A DNA stretch of 34,370 nt from Verrucomicrobiaceae bacterium (lineage in GTDB: Bacteria > Verrucomicrobiota > Verrucomicrobiia > Verrucomicrobiales > Akkermansiaceae). Under the pieces are notes generated by a model. It made no database searches, was not told the origin of the DNA, and saw nothing but the letters and a program-made list of their open reading frames with translations. The position numbers and the translations under genes are program-made. Below are positions 3,523-34,370 of the stretch, in pieces; position 1 is the first letter of the stretch; the number at the start of each line of letters is the position of its first letter. The stretch covers positions 1 through 34,370 of the forward strand of contig JAIYDT010000270.1 in NCBI GenBank assembly GCA_027487355.1. Reading direction: 5' to 3'.

Positions 3523-3525
3523 GAG

Positions 3526-3598: not shown

Positions 3599-3599
3599 G

Positions 3600-4706: not shown

Positions 4707-4716
4707 ACCCAAATGG

Positions 4717-4780
4717 ACTGAAACCCGAAACTCTGGAAATGCCCGAACTCCATCCGGCTGAACCCTTCAAACTGAAAACC
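4717..4780 (+). repeat. Degenerate 7-bp repeat tract between rfbG and rfbH
   Basis: The 88-bp spacer contains ctgaaac, ccgaaac, tctggaa in register at 4718-4738, then further ctgaac/ctgaaa words to about 4780 (for example actgaaaacc). The phasing decays after the first three units, so this is a weaker case than the tracts on either side of it. No promoter or terminator is recognisable. Confidence 0.45.
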
Positions 4781-4794
4781 GCCCAACCACCCCT

Positions 4795-6360
4795 ATGAAT
4801 CCTTCCGAACTCAAAGCTGAAATCCTCCGCCTGACCCGCGAATTCTCCCGCCTCACCCACAGCGCCAACCGTCCGGGTGACGATGCCGCCCACTCGCCCT
4901 TCATCCCTGGCCAGACCACCGTTCCCTATGCCGGTCGCGTTTTCAACGAGGATGAGGTCGAGGCCGCCGTCTCCGCCACACTCGACTTCTGGCTCACCCT
5001 CGGGCCCGAAGGCGAGGCGATGGAAAAGGAACTCGCCGAGTTCATGGGCGTGAAGCACTCCCTGCTCGTCAACTCCGGCTCCTCCGCCAACCTCGTGGCC
5101 TTCAGCGCCCTGACCACCCACAAGCTCCCCGAGCACAAGCGCATCCGCCCTGGCGACGAGGTCATCACCGTGGCCGCCGGCTTCCCGACCACGGTCTCCC
5201 CGATCATCCAGTGCGGCGCCGTGCCGGTCTTCATCGACGCCAAGCCCCTCACCGGAAACGCCGATTGCAGCCTGCTCGAGGCCGCCTACTCACCCGGCAA
5301 GACCAAGGCCGTGATGATGGCCCATGCCCTCGGCAATCCCTTCGAACTCTCCATCGTCCTCGCCTTCTGCAAGAAGTACGATCTCTGGCTCGTCGAGGAC
5401 AACTGCGACGCCCTCGGCTGCACCTACACGCTTCCCACTGAACTTGCCAAGGAACTCGGTCTCGACCACCTCCTCAAGATCGCCGAGAAGGGCGAGCACC
5501 CGATCATCCGGTTCTCGGAGTCCGAAAGCGGGAAACTCCTGACCGCTCCAACCGGATCGTTCGGTGACATCTCCACCCAGTCCTTCTACCCTCCCCACCA
5601 CCTCACCATGGGCGAAGGCGGTGCCGTCAACATCGTCCGCAAGCCCCCGCTCAAGACCTACGCCGAGTCCTTCCGCGACTGGGGCCGTGATTGCTGGTGC
5701 GCCTCCGGAAAAGACGACACCTGCGGCAAGCGCTTCAAGTGGCAGCTCGGTGAACTCCCGGAGGGCTACGACCACAAATACATTTACAGCCACATGGGCT
5801 TCAACCTCAAGCCGCTCGACACCCAGGCCGCCATCGGTCGCGTCCAGATCAAGCGTCTCCCCGCCTTCATCGAGGCCCGCAAGCAGAACTGGGAGCGCCT
5901 TCGCCGCGGCCTCCATGGACTGGAGCAGTACATCGACTTCGCCCTGCCCACCCACGCCACCGCCTGGATTCCACCGCAGGAAGGCTCCAACTCCGAAGTT
6001 CCAAGCTCCAGTTTCACCTGGGACGAAACCGGCTGCCGCACCGATTGTTCGTGGTTCGGTTTCAAGATCACCATCAAGGAGGATGCTCCCTTCACCCGCA
6101 CCGAACTCGCCGCCCATCTCGACGAGAACAAGATCGGCAACCGCATGCTCTTCGGCGGCAACCTCGTCCGGCAGCCCGCCTTCGTGCAGCTCCGCCGCGA
6201 CAACCCCGCTGCCATGCGCGTTTCCGGTGGGCTTCCCGGTGCTGACCGGATCATGAACCAGACCATGTTCCTCGGCACCTACCCCGGCCTCACTCCCGCG
6301 ATGATTGACTACATGGTCCAGGTCATCCGCGAGTTCGCAGCCGCGAAGGCTGCCGCCTGA
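4795..6360 (+). CDS. rfbH: CDP-4-dehydro-6-deoxyglucose 3-dehydratase (E1), with two insertions
   Basis: 521 residues; known RfbH/DdhC/AscC proteins are about 437. This is a PMP-dependent, [2Fe-2S] enzyme of the aspartate aminotransferase fold that removes the C3 hydroxyl. SFYPPHHLTMGEGG (263-276) has the His pair where ordinary aminotransferases have the PLP lysine, which is the hallmark of E1. Cluster ligands fit the family pattern: C204 in EDNCDALG, then C300, C302 and C310 in DCWCASGKDDTCGKRF (C-x1-C-x7-C). The first spacing is x95 rather than the family's x57, because about 38 residues are inserted after ALGCTY (about 211-250). A second insertion of about 25 residues precedes SWFGFKIT and contains a 7-bp repeat. 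The usual partner, E3 reductase, is not in the window. Fe-S, PMP and substrate motifs are intact, so it is probably active. Confidence 0.95.
   Translation: MNPSELKAEILRLTREFSRLTHSANRPGDDAAHSPFIPGQTTVPYAGRVFNEDEVEAAVSATLDFWLTLGPEGEAMEKELAEFMGVKHSLLVNSGSSANLVAFSALTTHKLPEHKRIRPGDEVITVAAGFPTTVSPIIQCGAVPVFIDAKPLTGNADCSLLEAAYSPGKTKAVMMAHALGNPFELSIVLAFCKKYDLWLVEDNCDALGCTYTLPTELAKELGLDHLLKIAEKGEHPIIRFSESESGKLLTAPTGSFGDISTQSFYPPHHLTMGEGGAVNIVRKPPLKTYAESFRDWGRDCWCASGKDDTCGKRFKWQLGELPEGYDHKYIYSHMGFNLKPLDTQAAIGRVQIKRLPAFIEARKQNWERLRRGLHGLEQYIDFALPTHATAWIPPQEGSNSEVPSSSFTWDETGCRTDCSWFGFKITIKEDAPFTRTELAAHLDENKIGNRMLFGGNLVRQPAFVQLRRDNPAAMRVSGGLPGADRIMNQTMFLGTYPGLTPAMIDYMVQVIREFAAAKAAA
5984..6011 (+). repeat. 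Heptamer repeat inside the rfbH coding sequence
   Basis: Four consecutive 7-bp units: gctccaa, ctccgaa, gttccaa, gctccag. They encode the Ser-rich EGSNSEVPSSS stretch inside the second RfbH insertion. The length (28 bp) and unit size resemble the intergenic heptamer tracts around rfbFGH, suggesting the same kind of sequence invaded the gene and was kept in frame. Confidence 0.6.
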
Positions 6361-17771: not shown

Positions 17772-19367
17772 ATGAACCAAGTCAATCTCAAGGCCCTTAT
17801 CTCCGTGCTCTTCGGGCTGTCGCTGGGCTTGTACGTGATGGTGGAGGTGCTTCTGGCACGCAGCAGCTCGCTGGGGCAGCTTTATCTCTTCCTCGCGATC
17901 GGTTCGTTCGTCTTTGGTCTCACCAACCCACGGGCGGCGATGTATGCCATGCTCGTTTCAACGGTTTACATCGACGTGTTGAAGCGGCTGATGATCGTGG
18001 GCGGCAATCCGACCTTTGTGGACGTGGCCTACATTCTCGCCATCCCGCCGTTGTTGGTGGCTGGCTCGATCATCTCGGTGTTCCTCGGAGTGACGGTCGG
18101 GCGCGGAAAGATGACGAAGGACATGGTTGCCTCGTTGATCGTGTCGGTCTTCGTGGTGGTGGTGACGGTGGCAGGTACCCTGGGCTCGGGCGACTCGCAG
18201 GGACTTGGACAATTGAGCGGCATCGTCAATCAGGGCTTCTACGCCTTTCTGTTCTTCACCATTCCGGTGTTGTTTCCGACGGATGAGGAGCGGCGAAAGA
18301 TCCTGCACTTCTCCTTCCTGACCTTCATTCCCTCGGTCTTTTACATGTTCTGGCAGCGCAAGTTCGGCTATGCTGACTATGAGGTTGCCTACCTGCAGTC
18401 CGGCCTCACCATTGAAGCCAAGAATCTGGTGGAGACGATGGGGCAGGTTCGCTGCTTCTCGACCTTCAACGGTGCCGGCACGGCTTCGACCCTGCTCTCC
18501 ATCTACATTCTTTATTGTTTCGTGCCGCTTCGACCAGGCAATGGGAAGCCGACCTTCTTCCAGAGGTTTGGCAAGTGGCTGCTCGCGCCCCTGTTCCTGC
18601 TCGCCTCGTACTTCACCATCGTCCGGACCGGTTGGGCCTGTGGACTTGGAACGATCGTGGCCTTCATCTTCCTTGGAACCCGCATGCGGGCCCGTTTCGG
18701 GCTTGGGATGGTGGTCGGCCTGTTCGCCACCGTGGTGGCCCTGGCGCCGATCATGGTCCGGGACCGTTGGCTGCAGACCATCGAGTCCGAGCTTCAGCGC
18801 ATCGTCCTTGCCACCACCAACGATCCGACCTTGAAGCGCGCGGTCGTTCTCGGAACTGCTCAGGACCGGGTCCAAGGCTGGGCGAACTTGACGCAGTCTT
18901 CAGAACTCTGGCAACCCTTCGGCTTTGCCGCCAGCGGCATCAGCGTCAAGAACACCACGAACGCCGACTTCCACTGGGGCCATGACGCGCTGATCGATGC
19001 CCTGATCAAGATCGGCTACATTCCCCTGTCGCTGATCGTGGCCTTGGCCATCTTCATGGTGAAAAAGCTGTTCGGTTACATGTATTCCCTGAGTCCAACG
19101 GATCTGGCCTTCAAGAACACGCGGCTGTGCATGGCCCTGGCGTTCGGCATCCTGGTCGGAGCGATGGGCAATGGTGCCCAGTTCCGGAACTACCCGCAGA
19201 ACTTCTTTTTCGCGATCTGGCTGGCGATTCCCTTCGCGACCTACCAGTCCGCCATGAGGCAGAGACGTGAGGCACGCCAAGCTGCGAGGGAAGAGGCCAA
19301 GGCAGATCAAGCGGAAGGGAACCCAGGCCGCAGCCGCCTTCCCCATCCCAATCCCGTTTCAGCATGA
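17772..19367 (+). CDS. O-antigen polymerase/ligase-like membrane protein
   Basis: 531 residues with about 10-12 hydrophobic segments (for example LISVLFGLSLGLYVMVEVLL, MVASLIVSVFVVVVTVAGTL). A central basic-cytoplasmic and periplasmic arrangement fits Wzy/WaaL-type proteins. The segment FTIVRTGWACGLGTIVAF (about 280) matches the R-T/S-x-W/G motif of the Wzy_C/O-antigen ligase family, and the large loop after it (about 320-410) ends DFHWGHDALIDALIKIGYIPL, equivalent to the conserved 'H-x-D/N-x-(L/I)-x-x-x-x-E/K-x-G' motif. The C-terminal tail is charged (RQRREARQAAREEAKADQ). It would join repeat units or ligate them to a carrier in the periplasm. Polymerase versus ligase cannot be decided from sequence. 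Its stop overlaps the next start (ATGA). Confidence 0.8.
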   Translation: MNQVNLKALISVLFGLSLGLYVMVEVLLARSSSLGQLYLFLAIGSFVFGLTNPRAAMYAMLVSTVYIDVLKRLMIVGGNPTFVDVAYILAIPPLLVAGSIISVFLGVTVGRGKMTKDMVASLIVSVFVVVVTVAGTLGSGDSQGLGQLSGIVNQGFYAFLFFTIPVLFPTDEERRKILHFSFLTFIPSVFYMFWQRKFGYADYEVAYLQSGLTIEAKNLVETMGQVRCFSTFNGAGTASTLLSIYILYCFVPLRPGNGKPTFFQRFGKWLLAPLFLLASYFTIVRTGWACGLGTIVAFIFLGTRMRARFGLGMVVGLFATVVALAPIMVRDRWLQTIESELQRIVLATTNDPTLKRAVVLGTAQDRVQGWANLTQSSELWQPFGFAASGISVKNTTNADFHWGHDALIDALIKIGYIPLSLIVALAIFMVKKLFGYMYSLSPTDLAFKNTRLCMALAFGILVGAMGNGAQFRNYPQNFFFAIWLAIPFATYQSAMRQRREARQAAREEAKADQAEGNPGRSRLPHPNPVSA

Positions 19368-21570: not shown

Positions 21571-22734
21571 ATGCGCCGAATCCTCTACATTGATCCACAC
21601 TTCTCGCTGGTCAGTCCTTCGATGAAGTCGGTGGTGAGGGCCCTGCCCCGGATTGCCGAGGATTTCGACAAGGTTGAAGTCTGGAGTGTGACCTGTGAGG
21701 TGGAGCATCCCAAACTTGAATGGGACCCGCTTTTCTGGGCGCCAAGACCCTGGCCACTGCGACTGGTCTGGACCGTGATCGCCTTTCATCTTCGGGCTTT
21801 CCTGAGGTTTGTGATCCTTCGTCAACCCCGCCCTGATATCATCCAGTGCACGGATTTCTATGCCCTGTTCTCGGACGTCATCTATGTCCATTTCCACTTC
21901 GGGCGCTATCGTGAGATCATCGAGTCCAAACCGGGTGTCATCCTGCTTTCCATTTCACGGCGGCTGATGATCTTCTTTTGTCGTGGCTTTGAAATGAGCT
22001 GCTTCAGGTGGGCACGCCCCAGGACCTGGCTGACGGTTTCTGATTCGATGAGCGGGCACCTGCGGGAACGCGAGGGATTGTCGCCCGTCGAGGTTCTTCC
22101 GAATGCCTACGATCCCAAGAGGTTTTCGTTGGCGTCCCGGGAGAGGCATCGGTCCTCCATGCGCAGCGAGCTTGGATTTTCCGAAGGGGACCTTGTGCTT
22201 GGCTTTTCGGCGCTTGGGGACTTCGAGCGGAAGGGTCTGCCGCTCCTGCTGGCGGCGGCCGACATCCTGGTTCGTGAGGGCCTGCCGATTCAGGTTCTCG
22301 TGGTGGGTGCCTCCAGTGCGGATGGAGGCACGATGGCGGATCTGGCACCTGCTGGATTTGAGTTGGATCGGATTCACGCCACCGGGAGGGTGGTCGAGAC
22401 AGAGCGATACTTCTCAGCCATGGATGCCTTTGTTTTCCCGTCCCATTGCGAATCGTTTTGTCTGGTCCTGATGGAGGCGGCCGCCATGGGGGTCCGCATC
22501 TATCCGGCCGCGTTTGACGGCCATGAGATGACCTTGGTCGAGGGCGTGAATGGGTCACGAATTCCCTGGGATGCCGAAGAGATCGCGGCGCGACTCAGAA
22601 AGGATCACGCCGAGGGACTGCTGAAGCGGGTCCACGAGGTCACAGGCCGCGCCATGGCGGACGATCAGTTCCAGGAGGCACTTGCCGGGCTTTATCAGCG
22701 CTTGATCAAGGCCCGGCCCAGCAAGTCCGCCTAG
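21571..22734 (+). CDS. Glycosyltransferase family 4
   Basis: 387 residues, 12 bp after the previous gene. The N-terminal half includes IIQCTDFYALFSDVIYVHFHFGRY. The donor half has VLPNAYDPKRF, VLGFSALGDFERKGLPLLLAAAD and FVFPSHCESFCLVLMEAAAMG, with the E-x7-E pair (ESFCLVLME) of GT4. A hydrophobic basic patch (PRPWPLRLVWTVIAFHLRAFLRFVI, residues about 61-85, shown here only as a guide) could bind the membrane interface. It is not a close copy of the two preceding GT4 enzymes. It likely adds another residue of the same repeat unit. Confidence 0.85.
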   Translation: MRRILYIDPHFSLVSPSMKSVVRALPRIAEDFDKVEVWSVTCEVEHPKLEWDPLFWAPRPWPLRLVWTVIAFHLRAFLRFVILRQPRPDIIQCTDFYALFSDVIYVHFHFGRYREIIESKPGVILLSISRRLMIFFCRGFEMSCFRWARPRTWLTVSDSMSGHLREREGLSPVEVLPNAYDPKRFSLASRERHRSSMRSELGFSEGDLVLGFSALGDFERKGLPLLLAAADILVREGLPIQVLVVGASSADGGTMADLAPAGFELDRIHATGRVVETERYFSAMDAFVFPSHCESFCLVLMEAAAMGVRIYPAAFDGHEMTLVEGVNGSRIPWDAEEIAARLRKDHAEGLLKRVHEVTGRAMADDQFQEALAGLYQRLIKARPSKSA

Positions 22735-22789: not shown

Positions 22790-24400
22790 ATGTCTCATGA
22801 AACACCCGGGTCGTGTTTCGCAACATTTTCGATGCATTCCATGAGTCAGGAATTGGATCCAAACAGGGCAGGTTCCCAGCCGGGCTGGAGAGCCCTGATC
22901 GGGCTTTGGCTGCTTTGCTCCGTCCTCGGTCTGATTGCCTACAAGACGGGCAGCGTCGTGGTTGACAGCTTCCAGAGCCTCGGTGCGGTCGCAGGTGCGG
23001 CCGGGCCGGGCCGGCTGCGCTGGCCCCTGCTGGGCGGTTTCATGGGCTATGATCAGACCTGGGGCTTCCACTGGTTTGGATGGCCCTTTCTGCGCTCCCT
23101 GCTGCTGCCGCTTCTTCCCTGGAGACCGTCGACGGATTTCGCCCTCGCCTGCCTGATCTGGGGTGTAGCGGCCTGGTTGATGGCAAGGCTTGCCGAACGG
23201 CTGCGGCAGGATGGCTCCGGAATCTGGACCGGCCTGCTCGCCGCCTCGGCGCCAGGGTTCATGGCGTCGATGCAAAGTTATCGCCCGGAGATCCTGACGG
23301 CACTGGTCCTGGTGGTGGTTCTGGTGAACTGGGAGGGGAAGGGGCGGAGTTCAGTCGTCTGGAGGGCGGCGGGCCTGGTCCTGCTGCCGATGTTGCATCC
23401 TCTCGGTTCGGTCGTTCCCGGATGTTGGCTGGCCGCGACGGTCTTGCTCGATGGAAGACAGTCTGGATGGAAGGCCGCCTTTGCGCGGAACCTGCCAAAG
23501 GGCCTTTCGCTGGGGATTGGCGTGCTGCTGCTGATCGCCTGGTATGGTTTTCAACCGACGGCCTGGGCCCAGTTCCAGCTCAATGTCCGCTGCCAACGCC
23601 TGCTGGTGGAAGGCCTGGGCGCGGGATGGCTGACGTTTTTCCGATGGGGACTCGGGGGACTCTCGTCGATTTTCCTGCTGTCGCTGTTTGTCCCCGCCAG
23701 TCTGTGGGCCTTGCGCAGCGTGATGGGTGGATTTAGTCCGGCCCTGTCCTCTGGCCGTCGGCTTGAACTGCTGGCCTCGATCGGAGTCCTAGTGACGCTG
23801 GCCTTCAACATCGCCGCGAAGAATCCGAACATGCTTCACCTCGTGGCAGCGATGCCTTTGGCAGCCTGGCTTTGCCAGCGCTTCATCCAGTCGGTTTCCG
23901 GACGCTTTCCAATTTGGGTGTGTCGGGCCAGCCTTTCCGCGGTCCTGGTGTTCTTCTGGGTGTATCCGCTGCGCCAGGGATGGGCCTGCCTCCGGCATCA
24001 AGGCATCGGCTTTCGGGACGAGTTGAGCGGGGTGGTCCGGGGCCTGCCTCCGGCCGGGAGGGTGTTCATTCCGGTGGCCCTGTGGGAGGCAGTCATCACC
24101 GATCCAAGGCCAGGCACCGAGTATCGACTCTCGACCTTTCCCAACCTCCTCACCCAGACCGAACGCGCGGATTACGAGCGGACCCTCACGAAGGACGCTG
24201 AAACGGGGGATCTTGTGGTCTGGGATGCCCTCCAGGATTACGGTGGGATCTTCAATTTTGTGACGGCAACCGCCTTGAAACACCAGCTTCTGCGGCCACC
24301 GGACGACCCGGAGCACTGGGAGCGACTCGATGACAGGAACCTCGACGTGACCTATTCACGAGGACAGCCTTTGACCTTCGAGGTCTATCGGAGACGATGA
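22790..24400 (+). CDS. Polytopic GT-C-like membrane protein, copy 1
   Basis: 536 residues if started at 22790; ATGs at 22832 and 22841 align better with the second copy at 32262. About ten hydrophobic segments span most of the protein. The first periplasmic loop contains GYDQTWGFHWFGWPFLRS (Asp88 by this start), matched by FDIHWGYHWFGWPLLRS in the second copy. An acidic residue in the first loop followed by aromatic and Arg residues is the usual layout of lipid-phosphate-sugar-dependent GT-C transferases. The C-terminal soluble part has FIPVALWEAVITDPRPG, TFPNLLTQTERADYERT and GDLVVWDALQD, also shared with the copy. I do not recognise a named family. It may transfer a sugar from a polyprenyl carrier to the polymer outside the cytoplasm. 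Confidence 0.62.
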   Translation: MSHETPGSCFATFSMHSMSQELDPNRAGSQPGWRALIGLWLLCSVLGLIAYKTGSVVVDSFQSLGAVAGAAGPGRLRWPLLGGFMGYDQTWGFHWFGWPFLRSLLLPLLPWRPSTDFALACLIWGVAAWLMARLAERLRQDGSGIWTGLLAASAPGFMASMQSYRPEILTALVLVVVLVNWEGKGRSSVVWRAAGLVLLPMLHPLGSVVPGCWLAATVLLDGRQSGWKAAFARNLPKGLSLGIGVLLLIAWYGFQPTAWAQFQLNVRCQRLLVEGLGAGWLTFFRWGLGGLSSIFLLSLFVPASLWALRSVMGGFSPALSSGRRLELLASIGVLVTLAFNIAAKNPNMLHLVAAMPLAAWLCQRFIQSVSGRFPIWVCRASLSAVLVFFWVYPLRQGWACLRHQGIGFRDELSGVVRGLPPAGRVFIPVALWEAVITDPRPGTEYRLSTFPNLLTQTERADYERTLTKDAETGDLVVWDALQDYGGIFNFVTATALKHQLLRPPDDPEHWERLDDRNLDVTYSRGQPLTFEVYRRR

Positions 24401-24443
24401 CCTAGCCCCACGTTAGCCCAGATTTTCATTCTATCTCCCCCCC

Positions 24444-25457
24444 ATGGACATGAAAGCATCCCCCGGTCACCTTCCAGGTTTTGACTGGCTTCGAGCCACC
24501 TTTATCTGCATGGTGGTCCTCGCCCATTTGAATGTGTTTGAGTTTCTGGCAGCGGGCAGGCCCGATGCGGAGACATGGAATCGCCATGATGTGGCCCGCT
24601 TTCAAGTCGTCTATCTCGCCGTGCCCGGCTTTCTCCTGATCGCAGCATTTCTCCAATCGATCAAGCAACAGAGTCGGGAAACCCATGTGAAACATTTCAC
24701 CGGCCTGTTCTATCTCTATCTGTTCTGGGTTGGTGCCTGGATCCTCGCGACCCACGCCCGCCCGGAGCTCAGCCCCTGGGGGCTGATCAGCTTCGTCTTT
24801 CGTGGAGGTGGCTGGGCATTCTACTTTTTCGCCGAATTGTTGATCATCCAGGTGGTTCGCGCCCTCATCAGCAACTGGAAAGACCGATCCCTCTGGTTGG
24901 GATTGCTGACGACTCTCTTCGTGATCGCAGCTGGCTTCGCGATTCTGGTCAAGGAAGGGAAAGCCTGGACAGTCACGAGCACCTACTGGTGGCCGATTTG
25001 CTTTCTTCCGGTGCCATTCATCGCGCATCTTCTGGCCCGAAATTACTCCGGGATAGTCGATTCGACCGGGAGACTGCTGCGGGTGGTCGGGACAATGTCC
25101 CTGGTCACCGTTGCTTTCGGCATTTGCGAGTGGAGGTTCGCCGCCTCGGCAGGAACCCTTGAGGGTCGGCCCTTCCTGCCGGAATACTTGCGCATTTCTT
25201 CGGTGCTCGGCGCCTCGTGTGTGGTGCTGGCCTCATTGCGGATCCGGACAGCGCCGCGACTGGTGCGATTCATTTCCCGGAACTCGCTGGGGATCTTCTG
25301 CATCCATGTTTTTGTCCTTTCCGGAGTCTACCGGGCGATTGCCGCGCGGATCCATGATCCCTTGAGCAGCAGCCTGATCACCTGCCTCGTGATCCTGTTT
25401 GGTGGGGCATGGATCGCCGAAGTTCTTCGCCGATGCATGAAATCTCGTTTGGTCTGA
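24444..25457 (+). CDS. Acyltransferase-3 family membrane protein, copy 1
   Basis: 337 residues, about ten membrane segments. FDWLRATFICMVVLAHLN contains the R-x10-H pair (Arg17, His28) required for catalysis in AT3 proteins such as OafA/OafB. FRGGGWAFYFFAELLIIQ and SLGIFCIHVFVL are later family landmarks. AT3 enzymes carry acyl groups, often acetyl from acetyl-CoA, across the membrane to modify sugars; this one has no fused SGNH domain, so a separate partner may complete the transfer. It is followed by a related gene. The leader is a run of pyrimidines (ctatctcccccccatg). Confidence 0.85.
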   Translation: MDMKASPGHLPGFDWLRATFICMVVLAHLNVFEFLAAGRPDAETWNRHDVARFQVVYLAVPGFLLIAAFLQSIKQQSRETHVKHFTGLFYLYLFWVGAWILATHARPELSPWGLISFVFRGGGWAFYFFAELLIIQVVRALISNWKDRSLWLGLLTTLFVIAAGFAILVKEGKAWTVTSTYWWPICFLPVPFIAHLLARNYSGIVDSTGRLLRVVGTMSLVTVAFGICEWRFAASAGTLEGRPFLPEYLRISSVLGASCVVLASLRIRTAPRLVRFISRNSLGIFCIHVFVLSGVYRAIAARIHDPLSSSLITCLVILFGGAWIAEVLRRCMKSRLV

Positions 25458-25512
25458 TTCCGTTCAGTCTGGCAGAATAAGTCAGTCTCCTCGTACCACA
25501 GCCACAAGCTCC

Positions 25513-26598
25513 TTGTCTGATCGACGTCCCGTGCCCACTGCAAGTCATTCCAATCCTGCCAGTTTCAATGAATCCCAGGGCTCAAAGCGCCTCTATTTGC
25601 CGGGATTTGATTACATGCGGGTGTTTTTCATGGTTTCCGTGATCGCCGGTCACGTCAATCTGATCACCGGGCTGGCGGCTAAACGGGCGGGAGAGATCGG
25701 CCCAGGGCCAAACTTCTGGGACCATTTCTACTTTGACGTTCAGTCCACGGCCGTTCCCAGCTTCATTCTGATCTCGACCCTCCTCTTCTGCGTGAAGCCG
25801 GTCACCTGGGAATCCACCCTGAAGCGGCTCACCAAGCTCGGTTATCTTTATATCTTCTGGGCTTCAGCCTGGATTGTGCACAGCAAGCCGATCTTGAAGC
25901 CGGGAGTCCTTGGGCTGATCGAGTTGATCCTGCGCGGCGGTGGTTGGCTGTTCTATTTCATTGCCGTCCTGATCCTGATGACCCTCCTCACGGCGGGAAT
26001 TTCGGCTCTCAAAGGGCGCTGGAGGGTCCTTGGTTATGCCGCCTCGCTGGGTATGTTACTGGCGACGGTGTTGTGGGTCTCGCATGACCACCATTGGACG
26101 AAGGGCAGCTATTACTGGGTTCCGACCTGTTTCGCCCTACTGCCGTGTTTCGCGCTCTGGCTGGCACCACGAATGGAGTCCTTGATCGAGGATCGGGCGT
26201 CCCGCTTGCGACTGGCGGCCGGACTGCTGGCCTGCGGAGTGGTGGCGGCCCTGGTCGAGTGGCACTTCTCAGCTCCTGGCAGCTTGATCGACGAGAGCCG
26301 GAAATGGGTGCCGAAGCATGCAAGGTTTTCGATCCACTTCGACGCGGCGATGATCGTGGTGCTGAGTTTGGGTATCCGCTGCAAGCCGGGTTGGATCGTC
26401 TCCTTTCTGGCGAGAAACGCGCTGGGAATCTATTGCCTCCACGGCTTCATCGTCGGCGGAGTGGTCAAGGGGGTCGGCCTCGTCCTTGGTGGTCGTTTCC
26501 CCGCCCTGCTTCTTCCCCTCGGCATTGTGGCAACCGTGTGCGTCTGCTCGTTGGGGGCGGAGTTCCTGCGCCGGGCCTTTCGTGAAAGGCTGGTTTGA
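25513..26598 (+). CDS. Acyltransferase-3 family membrane protein, copy 2
   Basis: 361 residues from a TTG at 25513; a GTG at 25531 is equally possible, since neither has a Shine-Dalgarno site. FDYMRVFFMVSVIAGHVN again has R-x10-H (Arg36, His47 from the TTG). LILRGGGWLFYFIAVLILM and ALGIYCLHGFIVGG match copy 1 (FVFRGGGWAFYFFAELLII, SLGIFCIHVFVLSG), as does TKGSYYWVPTCF against TSTYWWPICF. The two are tandem paralogues. Different acyl donors or acceptor positions on the polysaccharide are likely. The 55-bp spacer holds nothing recognisable. Confidence 0.84.
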   Translation: MSDRRPVPTASHSNPASFNESQGSKRLYLPGFDYMRVFFMVSVIAGHVNLITGLAAKRAGEIGPGPNFWDHFYFDVQSTAVPSFILISTLLFCVKPVTWESTLKRLTKLGYLYIFWASAWIVHSKPILKPGVLGLIELILRGGGWLFYFIAVLILMTLLTAGISALKGRWRVLGYAASLGMLLATVLWVSHDHHWTKGSYYWVPTCFALLPCFALWLAPRMESLIEDRASRLRLAAGLLACGVVAALVEWHFSAPGSLIDESRKWVPKHARFSIHFDAAMIVVLSLGIRCKPGWIVSFLARNALGIYCLHGFIVGGVVKGVGLVLGGRFPALLLPLGIVATVCVCSLGAEFLRRAFRERLV

Positions 26599-26677
26599 AC
26601 CTTCCTAGCCCAATCTGCGGAAGATCCAGCTTGAAACCACGCTGGATTCGTTCAGTCTGCTATTCCCGGCAATTTGA

Positions 26678-28807
26678 GTGCCAGACTTTCAAGCATTGCT
26701 TCCCCTACAGCTCGTGAACACCCTTTTAAGATTCAGCTTATGGCTGTCTCTGCTCGTGGCCTGCCCACTGCGAGCGCAGACCGCCTCGATCCTGGTGGAT
26801 TTCGGGTCCAGCTCGACCACGACCGCGTCGCCAGATGGTAATGGCAGGCATTGGAATAATGTGACAGACGGTGTTTCTGGAACGGTTCTTTCAAGCTTGG
26901 TGTCTTCAAGCGGATTTGCATCCGGAATGTCCTTGTCGGTCTCTGGATTTCAGGGAGTGAACACCAACGGCACGACCGTCCCGGACTCGGCGGCGCTTGG
27001 GCCTCTTGCCGTATCCTCCGCCACTCAGGATTCCTTTTATGTGGAACTGAACAACGTGCTGACGGTCACCCTCGGCAATCTTCCCCCCACCGGGCTGTTC
27101 AGGATCACCTTGTTCGGATCGCGTGACATTTCTGAATCAAGAAGCACGCGTTACGATGTGACAGGCCTGACGACCGAGACGGCGGTGCTGGCCACAAGTG
27201 GGCCCAGCCTTGGGATCTCGCCACGGCCTGACGCCAATCGCGCAGGCTCGGTGATCGTGGACAACATCGTTCCCACCGCCGACGGAAAGATCAGGATCGA
27301 GGTTCGTCGCAATGGATTGTCTTTCGGTTACCTTGGTGCCCTGCGCTGTGAAATCCTGACTCCAGTCAATTTTCCGCCTTCGGTCTCCAACTTGCTTCTA
27401 ACAGGCTCTTCCCGTGTAGGCTCAACGTTACGGACGGCCTGCACCTTCGTTGACCCGGATGGCGACCCCGAGGGTCAGACGAAATTCGTGTGGGAGCGGG
27501 CAAGCTCGCCTGGTGCCACCGGGATCGTCATCTCGGGTCCCGCAGGGGGAGTATCCACCTTTACCCTCCGACCTGAGGACCAAGGCGCTTATGTTCGCTG
27601 CGGCGTCACTCCGGAGGCGAGCTCCGGATTCCTTGTTGGCCAGACCCAGTACACCCCGTGGCTCGGCCCGATCAAGGCGGCGGGCGTTCTCACCACGTAT
27701 CACATTGGCAACAGCTTCACCCGCTGGACGAGCATCCCGCAGCAATTGGCGAACCTGAGCGTGGCGGAACCCAATCCGGCTTTGTTCGGAATGCAGCTGA
27801 CCGATGGGCAGTCACTTCAGTATCATTGGGACACCGGAACCCGCACGGGCCCCGGACCCATGCTCGGCTCGCGCTCACGGGAGGAGATTTCGACCGCCAG
27901 TTGGGACGTGCTGGTGCTCCAGCCCTTCAGCCAGGAGTGGCAATCGTGGTCAATGCCGGGGTTCACCGATTATGCCCGCCGGTATTACCAGTTGGCGGAT
28001 GCCGCCGGTACCCAAGTTTATCTCTATGCCTACTGGCCCTGGCAGTCGCAGACGCTTTCCACGCAGACGGCGATCAACGCCGCCTTTGAACAAGTCCGCA
28101 GTACCATCAGCCAGTCGGGCAGCAAGCCCGCCCTGATCATCCCGAGCGGTCAGGCGCTAAAGGCGGTGATCGACGCCTGCGGAAGCGGTCCGTTGCTCGG
28201 CTACAATCGGAGTTCCTTCTACCTGGATGACCGTCATCCAAATGCCTTGGGAGGTTATGTGAGTGCCTTGGCGCACTATGCGACCATTTACAAGAAGACC
28301 CCCGTTGGTCTACCCGCCCGGACCCTGACTCCGGACGCCAACGGTGGCCTGGTGCCGCTTCCCACCAACGTGGCGACCCGGATCCAGCAAATTGTGTGGG
28401 GAGTAGTCGGTACTTATCCGAACTCGGGGGTGGTGGCACCCGTCGAGATCCTGCCACCGCCGCCACCGCCGCCGGTGTATGTGACCCATTCTTCTTCGGG
28501 GCCGAATCCTGAAACACTGGCTTTCGCCTTCGGAATCGGGGCGGATGGCCTGACTCCACTCCCGGGAAGTCTCCCGCATTGCGTCGAGGGCACGAATCCG
28601 GAGGATTTCTCCGTCGAGTACGCGATTCGCCCCGAGGCGGAGGCCGCTGGAGTGACTTGGACGCCCGAGTGGTCGGCGAACCTGCGCCAGTGGACCGCCG
28701 CCCAACCGCAGTCCACGACGATTGTCAGGACTGGGAACACGGTCCGGGTTTCCTGGCCGAGGACCAGCGAGTGGCGCTTCCTCAGAATCTACGTGGTGCG
28801 TCCCTGA
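26678..28807 (+). CDS. Large secreted SGNH-hydrolase-type protein
   Basis: 709 residues from a GTG at 26678; a GTG at 26714 would still leave a signal peptide. The signal is LLRFSLWLSLLVACPLRAQ, with cleavage near residue 34. Residues about 37-225 form a beta-rich domain opening with ILVDFGSSS, like the carbohydrate- or surface-associated modules seen in Verrucomicrobiota. Residues about 230-330 resemble an Ig/cadherin-like domain (FPPSVSNLLLTG, DPDGDPEG). The hydrolase core begins TYHIGNSFTRW (Ser346 in the GNS block) and ends with YLDDRHPNALGGY (Asp517/His520, the DxxH block). A run of seven prolines then links to a C-terminal beta domain ending WRFLRIYVVRP. By family it may deacylate the surface polymer. 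No PEP-CTERM anchor is seen. Confidence 0.8.
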   Translation: MPDFQALLPLQLVNTLLRFSLWLSLLVACPLRAQTASILVDFGSSSTTTASPDGNGRHWNNVTDGVSGTVLSSLVSSSGFASGMSLSVSGFQGVNTNGTTVPDSAALGPLAVSSATQDSFYVELNNVLTVTLGNLPPTGLFRITLFGSRDISESRSTRYDVTGLTTETAVLATSGPSLGISPRPDANRAGSVIVDNIVPTADGKIRIEVRRNGLSFGYLGALRCEILTPVNFPPSVSNLLLTGSSRVGSTLRTACTFVDPDGDPEGQTKFVWERASSPGATGIVISGPAGGVSTFTLRPEDQGAYVRCGVTPEASSGFLVGQTQYTPWLGPIKAAGVLTTYHIGNSFTRWTSIPQQLANLSVAEPNPALFGMQLTDGQSLQYHWDTGTRTGPGPMLGSRSREEISTASWDVLVLQPFSQEWQSWSMPGFTDYARRYYQLADAAGTQVYLYAYWPWQSQTLSTQTAINAAFEQVRSTISQSGSKPALIIPSGQALKAVIDACGSGPLLGYNRSSFYLDDRHPNALGGYVSALAHYATIYKKTPVGLPARTLTPDANGGLVPLPTNVATRIQQIVWGVVGTYPNSGVVAPVEILPPPPPPPVYVTHSSSGPNPETLAFAFGIGADGLTPLPGSLPHCVEGTNPEDFSVEYAIRPEAEAAGVTWTPEWSANLRQWTAAQPQSTTIVRTGNTVRVSWPRTSEWRFLRIYVVRP

Positions 28808-28892
28808 GGCGGATGGTCACCGGGACGAAGTTCCCAGGGCTCCTGCGCTAGGGATCGTTGAATGGCAAAGCCGCGCTAGATGGGGAGAATTT

Positions 28893-29016
28893 GAACCGCC
28901 AAGACGCCAAGAGCGCCAAGGAAACTTCGAATGAGTGCCTCTGAAACCAGTTTCACTCCCCGCATCGCAATTTTTCATCGGTTTGACTTGGCGACCTTCG
29001 CGTCTTGGCGGTGAAA
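28893..29016. repeat. Inverted repeat with CCGCCAAGACGCC core
   Basis: The 323-bp gap 28808-29130 has no gene. It contains a left arm at 28893-28921 (aaccgccaagacgcc then aagagcgccaagg) and a right arm at 28987-29016 (cttggcgacc then ttcgcgtcttggcggtg). The outer 13 bp (accgccaagacgc) pair perfectly, and the rest is partly matched around a loop of about 65 bp. Words of this type are dispersed intergenic repeats in several PVC genomes. It might act as a bidirectional terminator-like structure, but there is no T-run. Confidence 0.75.
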
Positions 29017-29130
29017 AAGCTCTTTGTTCCGGATTTTGCCATGATCCCTCCCAAGTGCAGGGACCCTGACGAAGTTCCCTACCGCATGGGTTGACCCCTG
29101 CGTCATTTTCCGGATGATCCGGTCCCGATC

Positions 29131-30594
29131 ATGTTGTTCAATTCTTGGGAATTCCTGATCCTTCTTGGGATCACCTTTGCGGTTTACTACGCCCCCTGGA
29201 GCACAGGGCGCCATGGCAAGGCCTGGCAGGTGACCATCGCCCTCCTCGCGAGCGTGATCTTCTACGGTTGGGAGGATCCGAGGTTGTTGGGACTGCTGGC
29301 GGTTTCCTGTGTCGGAAACAGCATTGCCACCGCTAGGATCATTCTCCACAAGGTCAACGGGGATGAGGTTCGAGTGCGCCGCTGGGTAAGGCTGGCGGTG
29401 ATCCTCAACCTGGCCCTGCTTGGCGTCTTCAAGTACGCCCCGTTCCTCGCCGGCATGCTCGGTGGTCTCCCCCCCGGCTGGGTCGCCATGTTGAAGGCGA
29501 TCCCGCTGCCGATCGGAATCTCGTTCTACACCTTCCACGGCATCAGCATGATCGTGGACGTGGCTCGCGGCGAGGTGACTCGGGAAAGCGATGCGATGGT
29601 TTCCAAGGGAACGAGGTTCGCCAAGGGTGTCCGTGACATTGGCTTCTACCTGTTGTTCTTCCCGCAGCTCGTGGCGGGTCCGATCGTCAAGGCGAAGCAG
29701 TTCTGGCCGCAGATCGCCGCCAAGCGCCTCGCCGATGTCGATTGGCGGAAGGTGGTTCGATCGCTGATCATCGGGTATTTCCTGAAAATGGTGGTGGCCG
29801 ACAATCTCGCCGAGCAGACAGTGACCCTGACCAAACCCTGGATCACGCTCGCCTCCGGGGCGGATCTGGCGATGCTCCTCTATGGCTACAGCCTCCAGAT
29901 CTTCGCCGACTTCGCCGGCTACTCGCTGATCGCCATCGGGCTGGCCGCGATGTTTGGCTACACGTTTCCGATCAACTTCAATTTTCCTTATCTATCCACC
30001 AGCATCACCGAGTTCTGGCGGCGTTGGCACATGTCGCTTTCCGCCTGGTTGCGTGACTATCTCTACATCCCACTCGGAGGAAACCGCAAGGGTGAGGCCC
30101 GCACGTATCTCAACCTGTTCCTCGTGATGTTCCTCGGAGGACTCTGGCACGGGGCGGAGTGGAAGTTCGCCCTGTGGGGCACACTCCATGGGCTTCTGCT
30201 CGGGATCGAGCGATTCTGTTTCCGCAAGGTCACCCGCGAACAGGCCGCCCAGCCACGCTCCTTCCTCCGTGCGGCCCTGGGGTGGGCCTACACCTTCCAT
30301 GCTGTGACACTGCTTTGGCTGACCTTCCTGATGCCGGACCTCCATCAGATTGAACTCTATCTGAAGGGCTTGCTCGCTCCCGGAAAACCTGTCGGTCCAG
30401 TGGTGTTCGGGGTCACGATCTTTGGTTCCGCCGCCATCCTTTATCACCTGCTCGGCTGGGTCTCGGAGCACCGGAAGGAATGGCTCACCCGCTTCAAGAC
30501 CAGTGGGCTGGAGGCGGTGGCGCTTGGTGTCATGCTGTTCCTGACGCTGACCAATTCCGGTGCCCCCCAGGGCTTCATCTACTTCCAATTCTAG
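29131..30594 (+). CDS. MBOAT family O-acyltransferase, AlgI-like
   Basis: 487 residues, typical of AlgI/DltB/PatA-type proteins. It begins MLFNSWEFLILL, a common AlgI-like opening, and has about 11 membrane segments. Signatures are PKLVAGPI-like FPQLVAGPIVKAKQFWPQ, FAGYSLIAIGLAAMFGY, then FWRRWHMSLSAWLRDYLYIPLGGNRKG (His300). The catalytic LGGLWHGAEWKFALWGTLHG has His340 and His353. MBOAT enzymes pass an acyl group across the membrane to a polysaccharide. The gene lies 8 bp before an AlgJ/AlgX-like SGNH protein, the usual two-component arrangement for polymer O-acetylation. Confidence 0.95.
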   Translation: MLFNSWEFLILLGITFAVYYAPWSTGRHGKAWQVTIALLASVIFYGWEDPRLLGLLAVSCVGNSIATARIILHKVNGDEVRVRRWVRLAVILNLALLGVFKYAPFLAGMLGGLPPGWVAMLKAIPLPIGISFYTFHGISMIVDVARGEVTRESDAMVSKGTRFAKGVRDIGFYLLFFPQLVAGPIVKAKQFWPQIAAKRLADVDWRKVVRSLIIGYFLKMVVADNLAEQTVTLTKPWITLASGADLAMLLYGYSLQIFADFAGYSLIAIGLAAMFGYTFPINFNFPYLSTSITEFWRRWHMSLSAWLRDYLYIPLGGNRKGEARTYLNLFLVMFLGGLWHGAEWKFALWGTLHGLLLGIERFCFRKVTREQAAQPRSFLRAALGWAYTFHAVTLLWLTFLMPDLHQIELYLKGLLAPGKPVGPVVFGVTIFGSAAILYHLLGWVSEHRKEWLTRFKTSGLEAVALGVMLFLTLTNSGAPQGFIYFQF

Positions 30595-30601
30595 TCCGAC
30601 C

Positions 30602-31498
30602 ATGGCCCAGGAACCCTCCACTTCCCGATTCACCCTGGCCCTCCTGCTGAGCCTGACGGGCTGCTTTGGCGTCCAGGCGCTTGCCTTTTTCGGGCTCAAT
30701 CTCGCGACCGGCAAAACCGAGTCGAACTACTACAGCACCTTGAGCCGGTTCCAGGGGGCGATCGCGCCGGGAGCGGAGATCGCGCTTTCCGGATCATCAA
30801 TCTCGGGCCGACTGCCGGGACGTGAGTTCGGGAATCCCGAAGTGGCCAATCTCGGATCGGATGGTGGATCGCCGCTGGATGGACTGACCCTCCTTTCCGA
30901 AGGAGTGGTGGGCCGACCGAAGTGGCTTGTCGTCGAGATCAACACGGCTTTCAACAGCCTCGGCTTCGCGGACACTCCCGCTGTCGAGGGATCGAGGGGG
31001 CCTTGCTTCAAGATCGGCGGAAAAGTGCCGCTTCTCGGTGCCTCCAGCCGGCCAACGGGGATGCTCTATGGCTATCTGCTGGGAAGGCGCTGGAAAGGGG
31101 TGGCCGAGCCTTTCGCCCTGAAAGAGGTCCCCTCGCCTTTGCCTCCGTCACCTCTGGAGCAGGCGCAACTGACAGACCTGCAGAAGGAACGAATCCAGCT
31201 TCTCACCGAAGGCATCCTCAAGGCCCGGCAGAATGGAGTCCGTGTGCTGCTTGCCCGCTACCCGGCAGGTCCGATGAAGCAGCGCCAGATCGATGAAATC
31301 CAGACCGTGGCCGCCAGGATTCACGAAAAGACGGGTGTGCCCTTCCTCGATCTGGAATCCCAGATTCCAAGAGCCCAGTTGACCTTTACGGATTCCGTCC
31401 ATCTCGGGCCGGAGTCGGCTGCCAGGATTCTGGCAACCCTTCGGAATGCCTGCGTGCAGTTGACCCCAACCATTCCCGAATCGATTTCCCAACCATGA
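30602..31498 (+). CDS. AlgJ/AlgX-like SGNH acyltransferase partner of MBOAT
   Basis: 298 residues from the ATG at 30602; the open frame continues upstream but would overlap the MBOAT gene. One N-terminal hydrophobic segment (FTLALLLSLTGCFGVQALAFFGL) would act as a signal anchor, leaving the rest periplasmic. LSGSSISGRLPG carries the probable nucleophile Ser65 or Ser66, and FTDSVHLGPESA supplies Asp264 and His267 of the SGNH triad. Proteins of this plan receive the acyl group from the MBOAT protein and pass it to the polymer. Its ATGA overlap with the next gene indicates translational coupling. Confidence 0.75.
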   Translation: MAQEPSTSRFTLALLLSLTGCFGVQALAFFGLNLATGKTESNYYSTLSRFQGAIAPGAEIALSGSSISGRLPGREFGNPEVANLGSDGGSPLDGLTLLSEGVVGRPKWLVVEINTAFNSLGFADTPAVEGSRGPCFKIGGKVPLLGASSRPTGMLYGYLLGRRWKGVAEPFALKEVPSPLPPSPLEQAQLTDLQKERIQLLTEGILKARQNGVRVLLARYPAGPMKQRQIDEIQTVAARIHEKTGVPFLDLESQIPRAQLTFTDSVHLGPESAARILATLRNACVQLTPTIPESISQP

Positions 31499-32265
31499 AA
31501 ACCGCCCTGATCGGCTACACCGGCTTTGTGGGAGGAGTGCTGCACCAGGCGCTTCAGCCCGATCACCTGTTTCGCTCCACCAACATCGACGAGATTCGTG
31601 GGCAGTCGTTCGACCACATCATCTGCGCCGGGGTCCAGGCGATGAAATGGTGGGCAAACCTCCATCCGGAGGAGGATCGCGCAGGAATCAATCGACTGCT
31701 GGAGCCTCTGGCCGAAGCAAAGGCGGAGCGGTTCACCTTGATCTCATCGATCGATGTTTATCCATCCCCGCGCGGTGTCGATGAGTCAACGGTGATCGAT
31801 CGGACCGGGCACCACGCCTATGGACTGCATCGTCTGGAGGTTGAGGACCGGATCCGGGAGTTGTTCCCGAGGGTGGCCATTCTGCGGCTTCCCGGACTGT
31901 TCGGACCGGGTTTGAAGAAGAATGTCATCTTCGACCTGATCCATGACAACGGTCTCGACAAGGTTCATCCGGACGGAGTGTTCCAGTACTATGACACCCG
32001 TCGATTGGCGGCCGACATCGAAACGGTCTGGTCGAACGGGATTGAGCTTCTGAATGTTTCCTCCGAACCGCTGGGCACTTCCGAGATTCGCGATCACTTT
32101 TTCCCTGGGAAGGAACTCGGTGGCCAGGGTCCGGCCCCTGCCAGCTACGACATGCGTTCGCTTCATGCTCCTCACTGGGGCGGAAATGGCGGCTATCTTT
32201 ACTCACGGGAGCGGATGCTCGGGGATCTTGGCGACTGGCTGGCTGAATCGGGATCGATCGGATGA
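31495..32265 (+). CDS. Short SDR-type sugar-nucleotide dehydratase/epimerase-like protein
   Basis: 256 residues, much shorter than RmlB or GalE (about 330). The N-terminus ALIGYTGFVGG is a Rossmann glycine motif. FTLISSIDVYPSPRG holds the usual Ser/Thr strand, and HAYGLHRLEVED holds the catalytic Tyr109, but the expected Lys four residues later is Arg113. LRLPGLFGPGLKKN is typical of the extended SDR group. It probably binds NAD(P) and acts on a sugar nucleotide or sugar acid; the Lys-to-Arg change leaves activity uncertain. It overlaps both neighbours by 4 bp, an ATGA at each end, so it is part of a tightly coupled operon. Confidence 0.7.
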   Translation: MKTALIGYTGFVGGVLHQALQPDHLFRSTNIDEIRGQSFDHIICAGVQAMKWWANLHPEEDRAGINRLLEPLAEAKAERFTLISSIDVYPSPRGVDESTVIDRTGHHAYGLHRLEVEDRIRELFPRVAILRLPGLFGPGLKKNVIFDLIHDNGLDKVHPDGVFQYYDTRRLAADIETVWSNGIELLNVSSEPLGTSEIRDHFFPGKELGGQGPAPASYDMRSLHAPHWGGNGGYLYSRERMLGDLGDWLAESGSIG

Positions 32266-33890
32266 GAAGCCCTGGTAGTTCCATCGAGGTCTCTCTCCCT
32301 GGTTCCCGCAGTGATGTGGTGACTTGGGGGATGTGCCTGGGAATGGGACTTGCCTGGTTGGCCCTCTCGATGTGGGTGGGATGGTATGCCGTTTCACCCG
32401 GGTTTCCGGATGGCTTCCAGAGCACGGGTGCGGCCCTTGGCGGGGCCGGTGGATTTGGCTGGCCGTTTGTGGGTCAGTTCGAGGGATTTGACATTCACTG
32501 GGGCTATCATTGGTTTGGCTGGCCTCTGTTGAGGTCCTGGCTCCTGCCGCTTTGGTCGTGGTCGCCGATGGGGGACGCGCTCGCCCTGCACGGGTTGAGG
32601 CTGTTGACGGCGGGATTGGTGGCCTGGAAGGTTGCCCAGATGGGCGGCGGAAGGGCTGCGGTGCTGGTGGCTTTCGGGACGGTGATCCTCCAGAAAGGCT
32701 GGTTCTGCAGCATGGCCTTCCTGTTTCGGCCGGAGACACTGGCCGCCCTGACTTTGTGGTTGGCTGCCAGTCCGCTGTTGGGAGCCAACAGCTGCCTGCG
32801 GCGGGTGAAGGTTGAGACCGCATTCTCCATCATCGGATTGGTGGTATCCCCCCTGATCCATCCGCTGGCCGTTGCGGCGACAGGATTGATCGCGGTATTC
32901 GGGATCTGGACCGCAGTCCGTCGGGAAAGTGCCACCTGGGTTCGGGCGATTGGCCGCTGGGGACTCCCCTCATTGATCGGAGTGGTGTTGCTCGCGGTCT
33001 ATTACGGATCCAGCTCGATCCGCATGGAGCAACTGCTGGACACCCTGGCGACGATGTCGCTGGTGAAGAAGACTCCTTTCCAAGCCCTGTTCGGACTCGT
33101 TGCGGACGTCAAGAACCTGTTCCTGACCTGGCCCTGCGCGTTGTTCCTGGCCTTGATGGGCTGGCTGGCACTGCGAAAGGAAAGCCGGGCCTCGGTTCTC
33201 GCTGTTGGGGTGCTATTGCCAGTCACCCTCCTCGGTTTGTGTTTTTTGTATCTGGTCGCAGGCGGACATCCCAACACCGGACACGCAGCGGTGATGGCCC
33301 CATTCATGGGTTGGCTGGCCGGCATCCTGGTCGAACTGACCCGCAAGGCGAGTGGAGCCTGGCTGACTCGGTCGATGCTGGTCGGACAGCTCGCGTTCTG
33401 TGCGGTCCCGCTGTTCCTGGCGGCGTCAGCCTTCATGGTCGAGCCGCCGCGATCAGCGCGCGGGGTCGCCGTCAAGGCGATGGACCAAGCCTTGGCCCTG
33501 ACGACTGGCCAGGTTTTCATCCCCCTCAGCCTGTGGGAAGCGGCGGCGGTGCGGTCGCCGGACGAGCGGCGAAGGATTCGATTCGAAACTTTTCCAAACT
33601 ATGCAGTCCTTGATCGCCGGGCCGATTACGAGCGTCAGGTGATGGTCGGTCTTCAGCGGGGAGATGTCTTGGTGACCGACTCGATGGCCGGGCCCCAGCC
33701 CGATCCGGTGAATGTGCTGCCGTGGGCCCGTTCGGCAGTCCTACAGGGACAAGGAGGATGGGAAAAGCTTGCGGAGTTTGGCGCAGTGGAGACGGCCACG
33801 GTCCGGTTGGGCCCTGTGCGACGCCGGGAAATGCAGATTGGCAACCTGACGATTTTCAGGCGACTCGTCTCCGGGGCGCTGATTGAGTGA
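32262..33890 (+). CDS. Polytopic GT-C-like membrane protein, copy 2
   Basis: 542 residues, about ten membrane segments, and clearly homologous to the protein at 22790-24400. Shared features in order are FQSTGAALGGAG against FQSLGAVAGAAG; FDIHWGYHWFGWPLLRSWLLP with Asp77 (shown only as the first 20 residues would be FDIHWGYHWFGWPLLRSWLL); FRPETLAALTL against YRPEILTALVL; FIPLSLWEAA and TFPNYAVLDRRADYERQ near the end. It may be a polyprenyl-sugar-dependent transferase or a polymer modification enzyme. Presence of two copies in one locus, one beside GT4 genes and one beside an SDR and an isomerase, suggests two distinct acceptors. The start overlaps the SDR stop. Confidence 0.62.
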   Translation: MRSPGSSIEVSLPGSRSDVVTWGMCLGMGLAWLALSMWVGWYAVSPGFPDGFQSTGAALGGAGGFGWPFVGQFEGFDIHWGYHWFGWPLLRSWLLPLWSWSPMGDALALHGLRLLTAGLVAWKVAQMGGGRAAVLVAFGTVILQKGWFCSMAFLFRPETLAALTLWLAASPLLGANSCLRRVKVETAFSIIGLVVSPLIHPLAVAATGLIAVFGIWTAVRRESATWVRAIGRWGLPSLIGVVLLAVYYGSSSIRMEQLLDTLATMSLVKKTPFQALFGLVADVKNLFLTWPCALFLALMGWLALRKESRASVLAVGVLLPVTLLGLCFLYLVAGGHPNTGHAAVMAPFMGWLAGILVELTRKASGAWLTRSMLVGQLAFCAVPLFLAASAFMVEPPRSARGVAVKAMDQALALTTGQVFIPLSLWEAAAVRSPDERRRIRFETFPNYAVLDRRADYERQVMVGLQRGDVLVTDSMAGPQPDPVNVLPWARSAVLQGQGGWEKLAEFGAVETATVRLGPVRRREMQIGNLTIFRRLVSGALIE

Positions 33891-33903: not shown

Positions 33904-34370
33904 ATGAGAGACCTTTCCGTATCCCACATTGCCTGGCCTCCCGAACGTGAGGAGGGGATGCTAGAGATCCTGCAAGCGAAGGGGATATCGACCCTCGAAC
34001 TGGCACCGCTGCGAGCCTTTGGAAATCCCCTGCTGGCCGAAGAAGCGGAGGTCAGGGCGAAGTCCGAGTGGCTGCGCGAACGCGGCTTCCGGGTGGGCTC
34101 ATTCCAGGCCTTGTTGTTCGGAGCGGAGGGAGTCAACTTGTTCGAGGACGAGGCTTCCCGCAGCCGGATGAAGGAGTGGCTGATCGCCGTCGGCAGGGTG
34201 GCGGGCTGGTGCGGAGCGGGTCCAATGGTGTTCGGCTCGCCAAAGAACCGTCTGAAGGGAGCGATGAGCCATGCCGAGGCCGTGGCCAGCGCTGTGCCGT
34301 TTTTTCGGGAAGTGGGCGACGCGTGCGCGGGCTTTGGATCCTGTCTGGTGATGGAGGCGAATCCAGAGGC
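33904..34370 (+). CDS. TIM-barrel sugar phosphate isomerase/epimerase (3' end outside window)
   Basis: The frame opens at the ATG at 33904, 13 bp after the previous stop, and runs to the window end, giving 155 residues and a partial codon. MRDLSVSHIAWPPE opens like the first strand of xylose-isomerase-like (AP_endonuc_2) barrels. ILQAKGISTLELAP is the second strand and helix with a family-typical Glu. GFRVGSFQALLFGAEGVNLF is the third strand, FGSPKNR follows, and the last visible part CLVMEANPE supplies a metal-binding Glu. Such proteins isomerise or epimerise small sugars or keto acids. With the SDR two genes upstream, it could make an unusual monosaccharide. Confidence 0.82.
   Translation, partial: MRDLSVSHIAWPPEREEGMLEILQAKGISTLELAPLRAFGNPLLAEEAEVRAKSEWLRERGFRVGSFQALLFGAEGVNLFEDEASRSRMKEWLIAVGRVAGWCGAGPMVFGSPKNRLKGAMSHAEAVASAVPFFREVGDACAGFGSCLVMEANPE

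Follow-up and report, generated by a model that had tools for sequence, protein, structure and literature searches.

A previously unmodelled family of predicted GT-C glycosyltransferases in a polysaccharide gene cluster of a Verrucomicrobiaceae bacterium

The three-component systems GtrA-GtrB-Gtr in Shigella and Salmonella and the GT136 system in Citrobacter are precedents in which a polyprenyl-phosphate sugar synthase, a candidate flippase and a GT-C transferase are encoded in one cluster (PMC11127046). In enzymes of the GT-CA type, the catalytic base is an Asp located at the tip of juxtamembrane helix 1 (JM1); this residue is D58 in PimE and has equivalents in ALG6, ArnT and PglB (PMC12041525). 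The plan of ArnT, with juxtamembrane helices in the first periplasmic loop, and its Asp at the catalytic position have also been described (PMC7801869). Here, two genes of a Verrucomicrobiaceae bacterium are compared with these systems. They lie on contig JAIYDT010000270.1 of assembly GCA_027487355.1 (forward strand, positions 1 to 34,370; this whole stretch of 34,370 nucleotides is called the window) and encode protein A (536 aa; 22790..24400, + strand) and protein B (542 aa; 32262..33890, + strand). A and B probably represent two subfamilies of a previously unmodelled family of GT-C (GT-CA-like) glycosyltransferases, a degree of confidence that applies to the explanation as a whole, including periplasmic decoration with sugars carried on undecaprenyl phosphate (Und-P).

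Both open reading frames start with ATG and are intact, and their products are related, as the original prediction had proposed for these two positions: BLASTP aligned A and B at 29% identity over 497 columns (E=3e-30). At the DNA level the longest blastn match was 55 bp at 76%, and a recent duplication is unlikely because the DNA is too diverged. Protein A is predicted to have a GT-C fold with 11 transmembrane (TM) helices, a loop carrying the juxtamembrane helices JM1 and JM2 after TM1 and a periplasmic C-terminal domain; the same architecture is predicted for its paralog B. All six frames of the window together contain just two occurrences of the motif WG.HWFGWP.LRS, one in A (WGFHWFGWPFLRS, residues 91-103, in periplasmic loop 1 around helix JM2; 23060..23098, + strand) and one in B (WGYHWFGWPLLRS, residues 80-92; 32499..32537, + strand). 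The RPE motif of A (residues 165-167; 23282..23290, + strand) lies at the predicted periplasmic end between TM3 and TM4. Together with the FIP.-LWEA, TFPN and RADYER segments toward the C-terminus, RPE is common to both proteins, as had been noticed earlier. The leading Asp of the proposed D-x-x-WG motif (D88 in A) fared less well: W91 and G92 are invariant among family members, and the Asp varies. D88 was thus rejected as a catalytic residue.

AlphaFold2 models of both proteins were built from a 10-row alignment. The model of A reached a predicted local distance difference test score (pLDDT) of 77.9 and a predicted template modelling score (pTM) of 0.81, and that of B reached 72.0 and 0.76. 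Every match at E<=0.001 found by Foldseek was a GT-C protein, both for A against PDB (20/20) and for B (12/12). With VIA, the model of A gave Z 21.6 to Pmt1-Pmt2 (6p25_B; 358 residues aligned, 4.7 Å), 20.6 to yeast oligosaccharyltransferase (8age_A; 441 aligned) and 19.9 to ArnT (5f15; 437 aligned). For B, ranks 1-49 were GT-C-fold entries (Z 20.0-12.3) and rank 50 was an unrelated protein (Z 5.3). The matches of the two models span PMT, STT3/PglB/AglB, ArnT, Emb and ALG enzymes. TM1 of A covers residues 32-53 in the model, JM1 (57-68) and JM2 (97-104) lie between TM1 and TM2, a helix pair (256-287) separates TM7 from TM8, and the 11 TM helices, which were assigned by hand from the helix list of the model, are followed by an alpha/beta part at the periplasmic C-terminus. 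Short loops on the predicted cytoplasmic side are richer in Lys/Arg than the periplasmic ones. The GT-CA subclass is marked by a conserved module of seven TM helices with JM1 and JM2. The helix order TM1-JM1-JM2-TM2..TM7 can be read in the predicted model of A, and GT-CA members gave the strongest matches of both models; A and B may belong to this subclass. At the profile level, hhalign matched the family to 13 PMT_2 proteins from related genomes (96.1%, E 2.8e-9) over TM2-TM4, a block that takes in RPE. Control comparisons of the family profile with proteins of the same cluster gave 1.7% for acyltransferase-3, 0.1% for the Wzy-like protein and 0.1% for MBOAT, and PMT_2 against acyltransferase-3 gave 2.9%. 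The GT-C-like fold that the original prediction had suggested is thus borne out by the comparison with ArnT, PMT and AglB types that it had proposed as a check, and a fold other than GT-C was not seen. The models argue strongly for a polytopic GT-C fold in both A and B.

Sequence families gave a different picture. No Pfam or NCBIfam model matched A or B at or above cutoff, and PDB sequence searches with A, B and the family profile returned nothing above cutoff. The curated Pfam cutoffs of ArnT/PMT_2 (PF13231, GT83) and PMT (PF02366, GT39) were reached by no family member, and neither model was among the matches. The view that the HWFGWP signature belongs to no described family therefore stood up in these searches, and a confident match to a characterised family, which would have refuted it, was not returned. 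Homologues were also absent from the plasmid records searched, and a text search of the open-access literature, which cannot prove absence, found no description of the family. As a candidate for an undescribed component, the pair stands as an unmodelled sequence family, but its fold class and pathway type are well known. By its sequences the family is narrow, without an entry in Pfam or NCBIfam, and sits inside a known structural kind.

The best Pfam match of A, below threshold, was STT3 (PF02516, GT66; E 0.033, 14.2 bits, cutoff 24.5), which raises the question of whether A and B act like oligosaccharyltransferases of the STT3/PglB type, moving a whole glycan linked to undecaprenyl pyrophosphate onto protein, or serve as alternative polymerases or ligases. 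STT3/PglB/AglB proteins share the GT-C fold and rank high among the structural matches of A, the match extending to the C-terminus, and a related locus (G822) lies beside an exosortase gene, so that sorted surface proteins are likely there. However, the family does not conserve the STT3 motif WWDYG: the WDALQDYG of A is not kept in its own subfamily and is missing from B, and WWDYG was therefore rejected as a signature in A. Matches to the monosaccharide transferases PMT and ArnT are equally strong. Furthermore, the cluster already encodes a Wzy_C ligase, on the contig that continues it (C158, described below), and a separate candidate polymerase to which the family profile shows no similarity (0.1%). 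An oligosaccharyltransferase, polymerase or ligase role is thus considered unlikely.

ArnT, the transferase of Und-P-aminoarabinose, is another close known system. A and B match ArnT/PMT_2 proteins in the GT-C fold (Z 18-20 over 397-437 residues) and in the profile block over TM2-TM4 (96%), and a candidate partner synthase is related to ArnC; the predicted architecture also has in common with ArnT a first periplasmic loop that carries JM1 and JM2, the Asp at the catalytic position, helices that separate TM7 from TM8 and a C-terminal domain on the periplasmic side. In contrast to ArnT/PMT_2, A and B have no Pfam PMT_2 match and are 10-12% identical in the structural alignment. ArnT has 13 TM helices against the 11 predicted here, and a D-E pair where the A/B family has DS or DG; the WG-x-HW-x-GW and RPE motifs are the family's own. 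This likeness bears on the acceptor. Both A and B have ArnT among their closest structures, and the GtrB-like GT2 is similar to both ArnC and GtrB, as would fit action on lipid A, another envelope lipid or a glycolipid in the manner of ArnT or PimE. A and B, however, lie deep inside a polysaccharide cluster, near GT4, acyltransferase and MBOAT genes, and their presence varies between related loci, as for decoration enzymes rather than core lipid modification. A lipid acceptor in place of the cluster's polysaccharide is therefore judged very unlikely. The eukaryotic O-mannosyltransferases Pmt1-Pmt2 and Pmt4 (GT39) are the structures that both models match best (Z 19-22, about 350 residues), but they differ in that A and B have no PF02366 match, that the alignment ends before the C-terminal part and that protein O-mannosylation contrasts with a bacterial polysaccharide locus.

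Conservation was followed across an alignment of 15 family members. Thirteen residues are invariant in 15/15 (A numbering): D59, W91, G92, W95, G97, R165, E167, P200, N347, R409, W432, P451 and E463. Q62, S63, H94, W98, P166, H203 and H350 are altered solely in a distant member. D59 (codon 22964..22966, + strand) and its equivalent in B, D50 (codon 32409..32411, + strand), lie just past TM1, where JM1 starts. Because of this position at the JM1 tip, its invariance and the GT-CA precedent, the Asp of the first extracytoplasmic loop is the candidate catalytic base. R165/E167, H203 and N347/H350 may act as ligands of the donor or its phosphate, as their conservation and predicted periplasmic side suggest.

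The genome of the window holds only two family members, A and B. Homologues are rare: they were found in 2/190 genomes in a sample of the order (the window's own genome included) and in 3/388 in a sample of the phylum. In a sample of the class, 11/384 genomes had matches, six of them short and marginal (E 3e-4 to 8e-3); two of these six, in L029 and L031, resemble classical PMT_2-type GT-Cs, which is consistent with the fold assignment and is not evidence alone. A collection of genome contigs yielded six loci with homologues, in records labelled as metagenome-assembled genomes of Verrucomicrobiaceae or Akkermansia, and a further two (G818 and G857) were reached via the neighbouring epimerase gene. 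The assemblies labelled 'Akkermansia muciniphila' (L017, L018 and L020) carry a related cluster, and this species label may be a naming error. The distant member is from another order of the class (G257, L021:10053-11588); a search of that order returned only this one and a fragment in G684.

In a maximum-likelihood tree of the 15 members, three subfamilies were recovered, B and C with full support and A with moderate support (69/86), and the placement of the distant member is unsure. Paralog C lies between the NAD epimerase gene and B in relatives (L017:8359-9876, L018:8403-9929 and L082:11908-13563 on the minus strand). The window is without C, and its two copies are two of three paralog types. 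The claim of two copies therefore stands for the window but not for the family. Nor is HWFGWP shared by the whole family: it typifies only subfamilies A and B, and the corresponding motif is WGHHWPGW in C and WGLNWPGG in the distant member. The window has A and B; G107 has A, C and B; G764 and G818 have C and B in the stretches read; and G813, G822 and G857 have A. The B homologue of G107 (L018:9929-11302, contig 11) is interrupted by an in-frame TAG following codon 458, and coding sequence can still be recognised beyond it, which suggests a broken gene or a sequencing error.

The cluster continues beyond the window. Its last 119 bp are identical to the first 119 bp of contig C158 (L043) of the same genome, and the join is supported by a close relative (L015) in which the isomerase-like gene directly follows B, with the DAO-type and second GT2 genes beyond, on one contig. 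C158 carries the rest of the isomerase-like gene, a DAO-type oxidoreductase, two GT2s, a GtrA-like protein, a GT4, an EPS_sugtrans initiating transferase and a Wzy_C ligase of the O-antigen ligase type; for several of these genes, the Pfam assignment was obtained with the homologues from L015, L017 and L018. One GT2 (L043:1842-2840) is GtrB/ArnC-like by PDB sequence match over residues 7-307 (GtrB sll0501, E 1.9e-35; ArnC, 8.5e-23), and the second resembles AglJ and dolichyl-phosphate hexose transferases. The GtrA-like protein (L043:3646-4170; PF04138 GtrA_DPMS_TM, 1.4e-11) is a candidate flippase. The joined cluster thus contains a candidate synthase and a putative flippase of the kind found in three-component Und-P-sugar systems. 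It differs from the Gtr and GT136 systems in the number of GT-C paralogs (several) and of candidate synthases (two) at a locus, in that A and B have no Pfam match to described Gtr transferases, and in that the GtrB/GT2 part also occurs without A, B or C. The likeness to the Citrobacter GT136 system, whose pentofuranosyltransferase is ORF12, is one of cluster make-up.

Periplasmic GT-C transferases that use Und-P-linked sugars to decorate the cluster's polysaccharide are, in our judgement, the most probable explanation of A and B. Their use of Und-P-sugars is likely, given the fold, the invariant Asp at the JM1 tip and the neighbours of GtrB and GtrA type. The cluster's polysaccharide is the most economical guess for the acceptor, and lipid or protein acceptors are possible. 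Several observations weigh against this explanation. The first periplasmic loop of B is partly of low confidence (residues 48-71, pLDDT <50), and the profile match between the family and PMT_2 spans only 72 columns. Among loci sharing the epimerase gene, A, B or C are present in eight, but G118, G838, G871 and G867 have none of them in the ~20 kb read and retain the GtrB/GT2 pair or parts of it. Exclusive co-occurrence was therefore rejected and a strict one-to-one pairing with GtrB is unsupported; since presence varies while GtrB/GT2 parts are kept, A, B and C look like decoration enzymes that vary around a core that is better conserved. A fold match is also no proof of catalysis, as PIGU, a subunit of the glycosylphosphatidylinositol transamidase and not a glycosyltransferase, was matched too (Z 14.8 for A, 13.6 for B). 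One or both proteins could thus be non-catalytic, for instance assembly subunits like PIGU. Dead paralogs, however, usually lose residues at catalytic positions, and here the Asp, R165, E167 and N347 are kept in 15/15 members, including one at about 23% identity; of the alternatives, a non-catalytic role is held to be the least probable.

The remaining genes of the window are in keeping with a polysaccharide cluster. Glucose-1-phosphate cytidylyltransferase, CDP-glucose 4,6-dehydratase and RfbH genes (2755-6360, all above NCBIfam cutoffs; CDP, cytidine diphosphate) suggest a CDP-linked 3,6-dideoxyhexose in the polysaccharide. Besides GT2 and GT4 enzymes, a polytopic protein of 531 aa (17772..19367, + strand) without a Pfam or NCBIfam match is a candidate Wzy-type polymerase by position and appearance. 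A is flanked by a GT4 glycosyltransferase directly upstream (21571..22734, + strand; Pfam) and an acyltransferase 3 (PF01757) directly downstream (24444..25457, + strand). Then follow a second acyltransferase 3 (PF01757; 25513..26598, + strand), a large, secreted-looking protein of 709 aa (26678-28807) conserved in related loci at 43-88% identity with sub-threshold Pfam matches only (DUF4886, IG_AIR9), an MBOAT O-acyltransferase (PF03062; 29131..30594, + strand) and its putative SGNH/GDSL-like partner (30560..31498, + strand; a weak match below cutoff). With two acyltransferase-3 genes and an MBOAT/SGNH-like pair in one cluster, several O-acylation steps are expected. An NAD-dependent epimerase-like gene (31495..32265, + strand), by which the conserved locus can be recognised, shares its last 4 bp with the start of B, and the 5' part of a TIM-barrel isomerase-like gene (33904..34370, + strand; Pfam tested on the L015 homologue) is cut by the contig end. 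In related loci, other polytopic proteins without a Pfam match occupy the same neighbourhood (L089:12637-14337, minus strand, of G867, and L017:12537-13946); by their first loops they look like GT-C-type proteins of a different kind, perhaps filling the same role. In G822 (L088:811-2546), exosortase and EpsI-like genes lie just past the ligase end of the related cluster, and the genome of the window has two exosortase-family matches on other contigs.

By homology, the GtrB/ArnC-type GT2, the second dolichyl-phosphate-hexose-synthase-like GT2 or both would charge Und-P with sugar in the cytoplasm, and the product may cross the membrane with the help of the GtrA-type protein. A and B would then take this donor from the membrane. 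Asp59 of A or Asp50 of B, at the JM1 tip, may activate the acceptor hydroxyl, while R165/E167, H203 and N347/H350, predicted to face the same periplasmic side, could bind the donor or its phosphate. Each paralog might add a different sugar or linkage to the polysaccharide, before or after polymerisation. A wider version, which we regard as doubtful, is a multi-donor system of periplasmic decoration. In it, two Und-P-sugar synthases would feed two or three dedicated GT-C paralogs (A, B and C), perhaps acting as heteromers like Pmt1-Pmt2, and related bacteria would come to differ in their surface glycan as paralogs are gained and lost.

The known picture of Und-P-sugar use is left unchanged by this family. 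Pipelines relying on Pfam or NCBIfam would leave the genes of A, B and C without a name. To the GT-C enzymes is added an unmodelled family, with concrete predictions of catalytic residues and partner genes. Its hosts belong to bacteria whose surface glycans have been little studied, and with its paralogs and their variable presence, the family would make a reasonable test case for the diversification of surface decoration.

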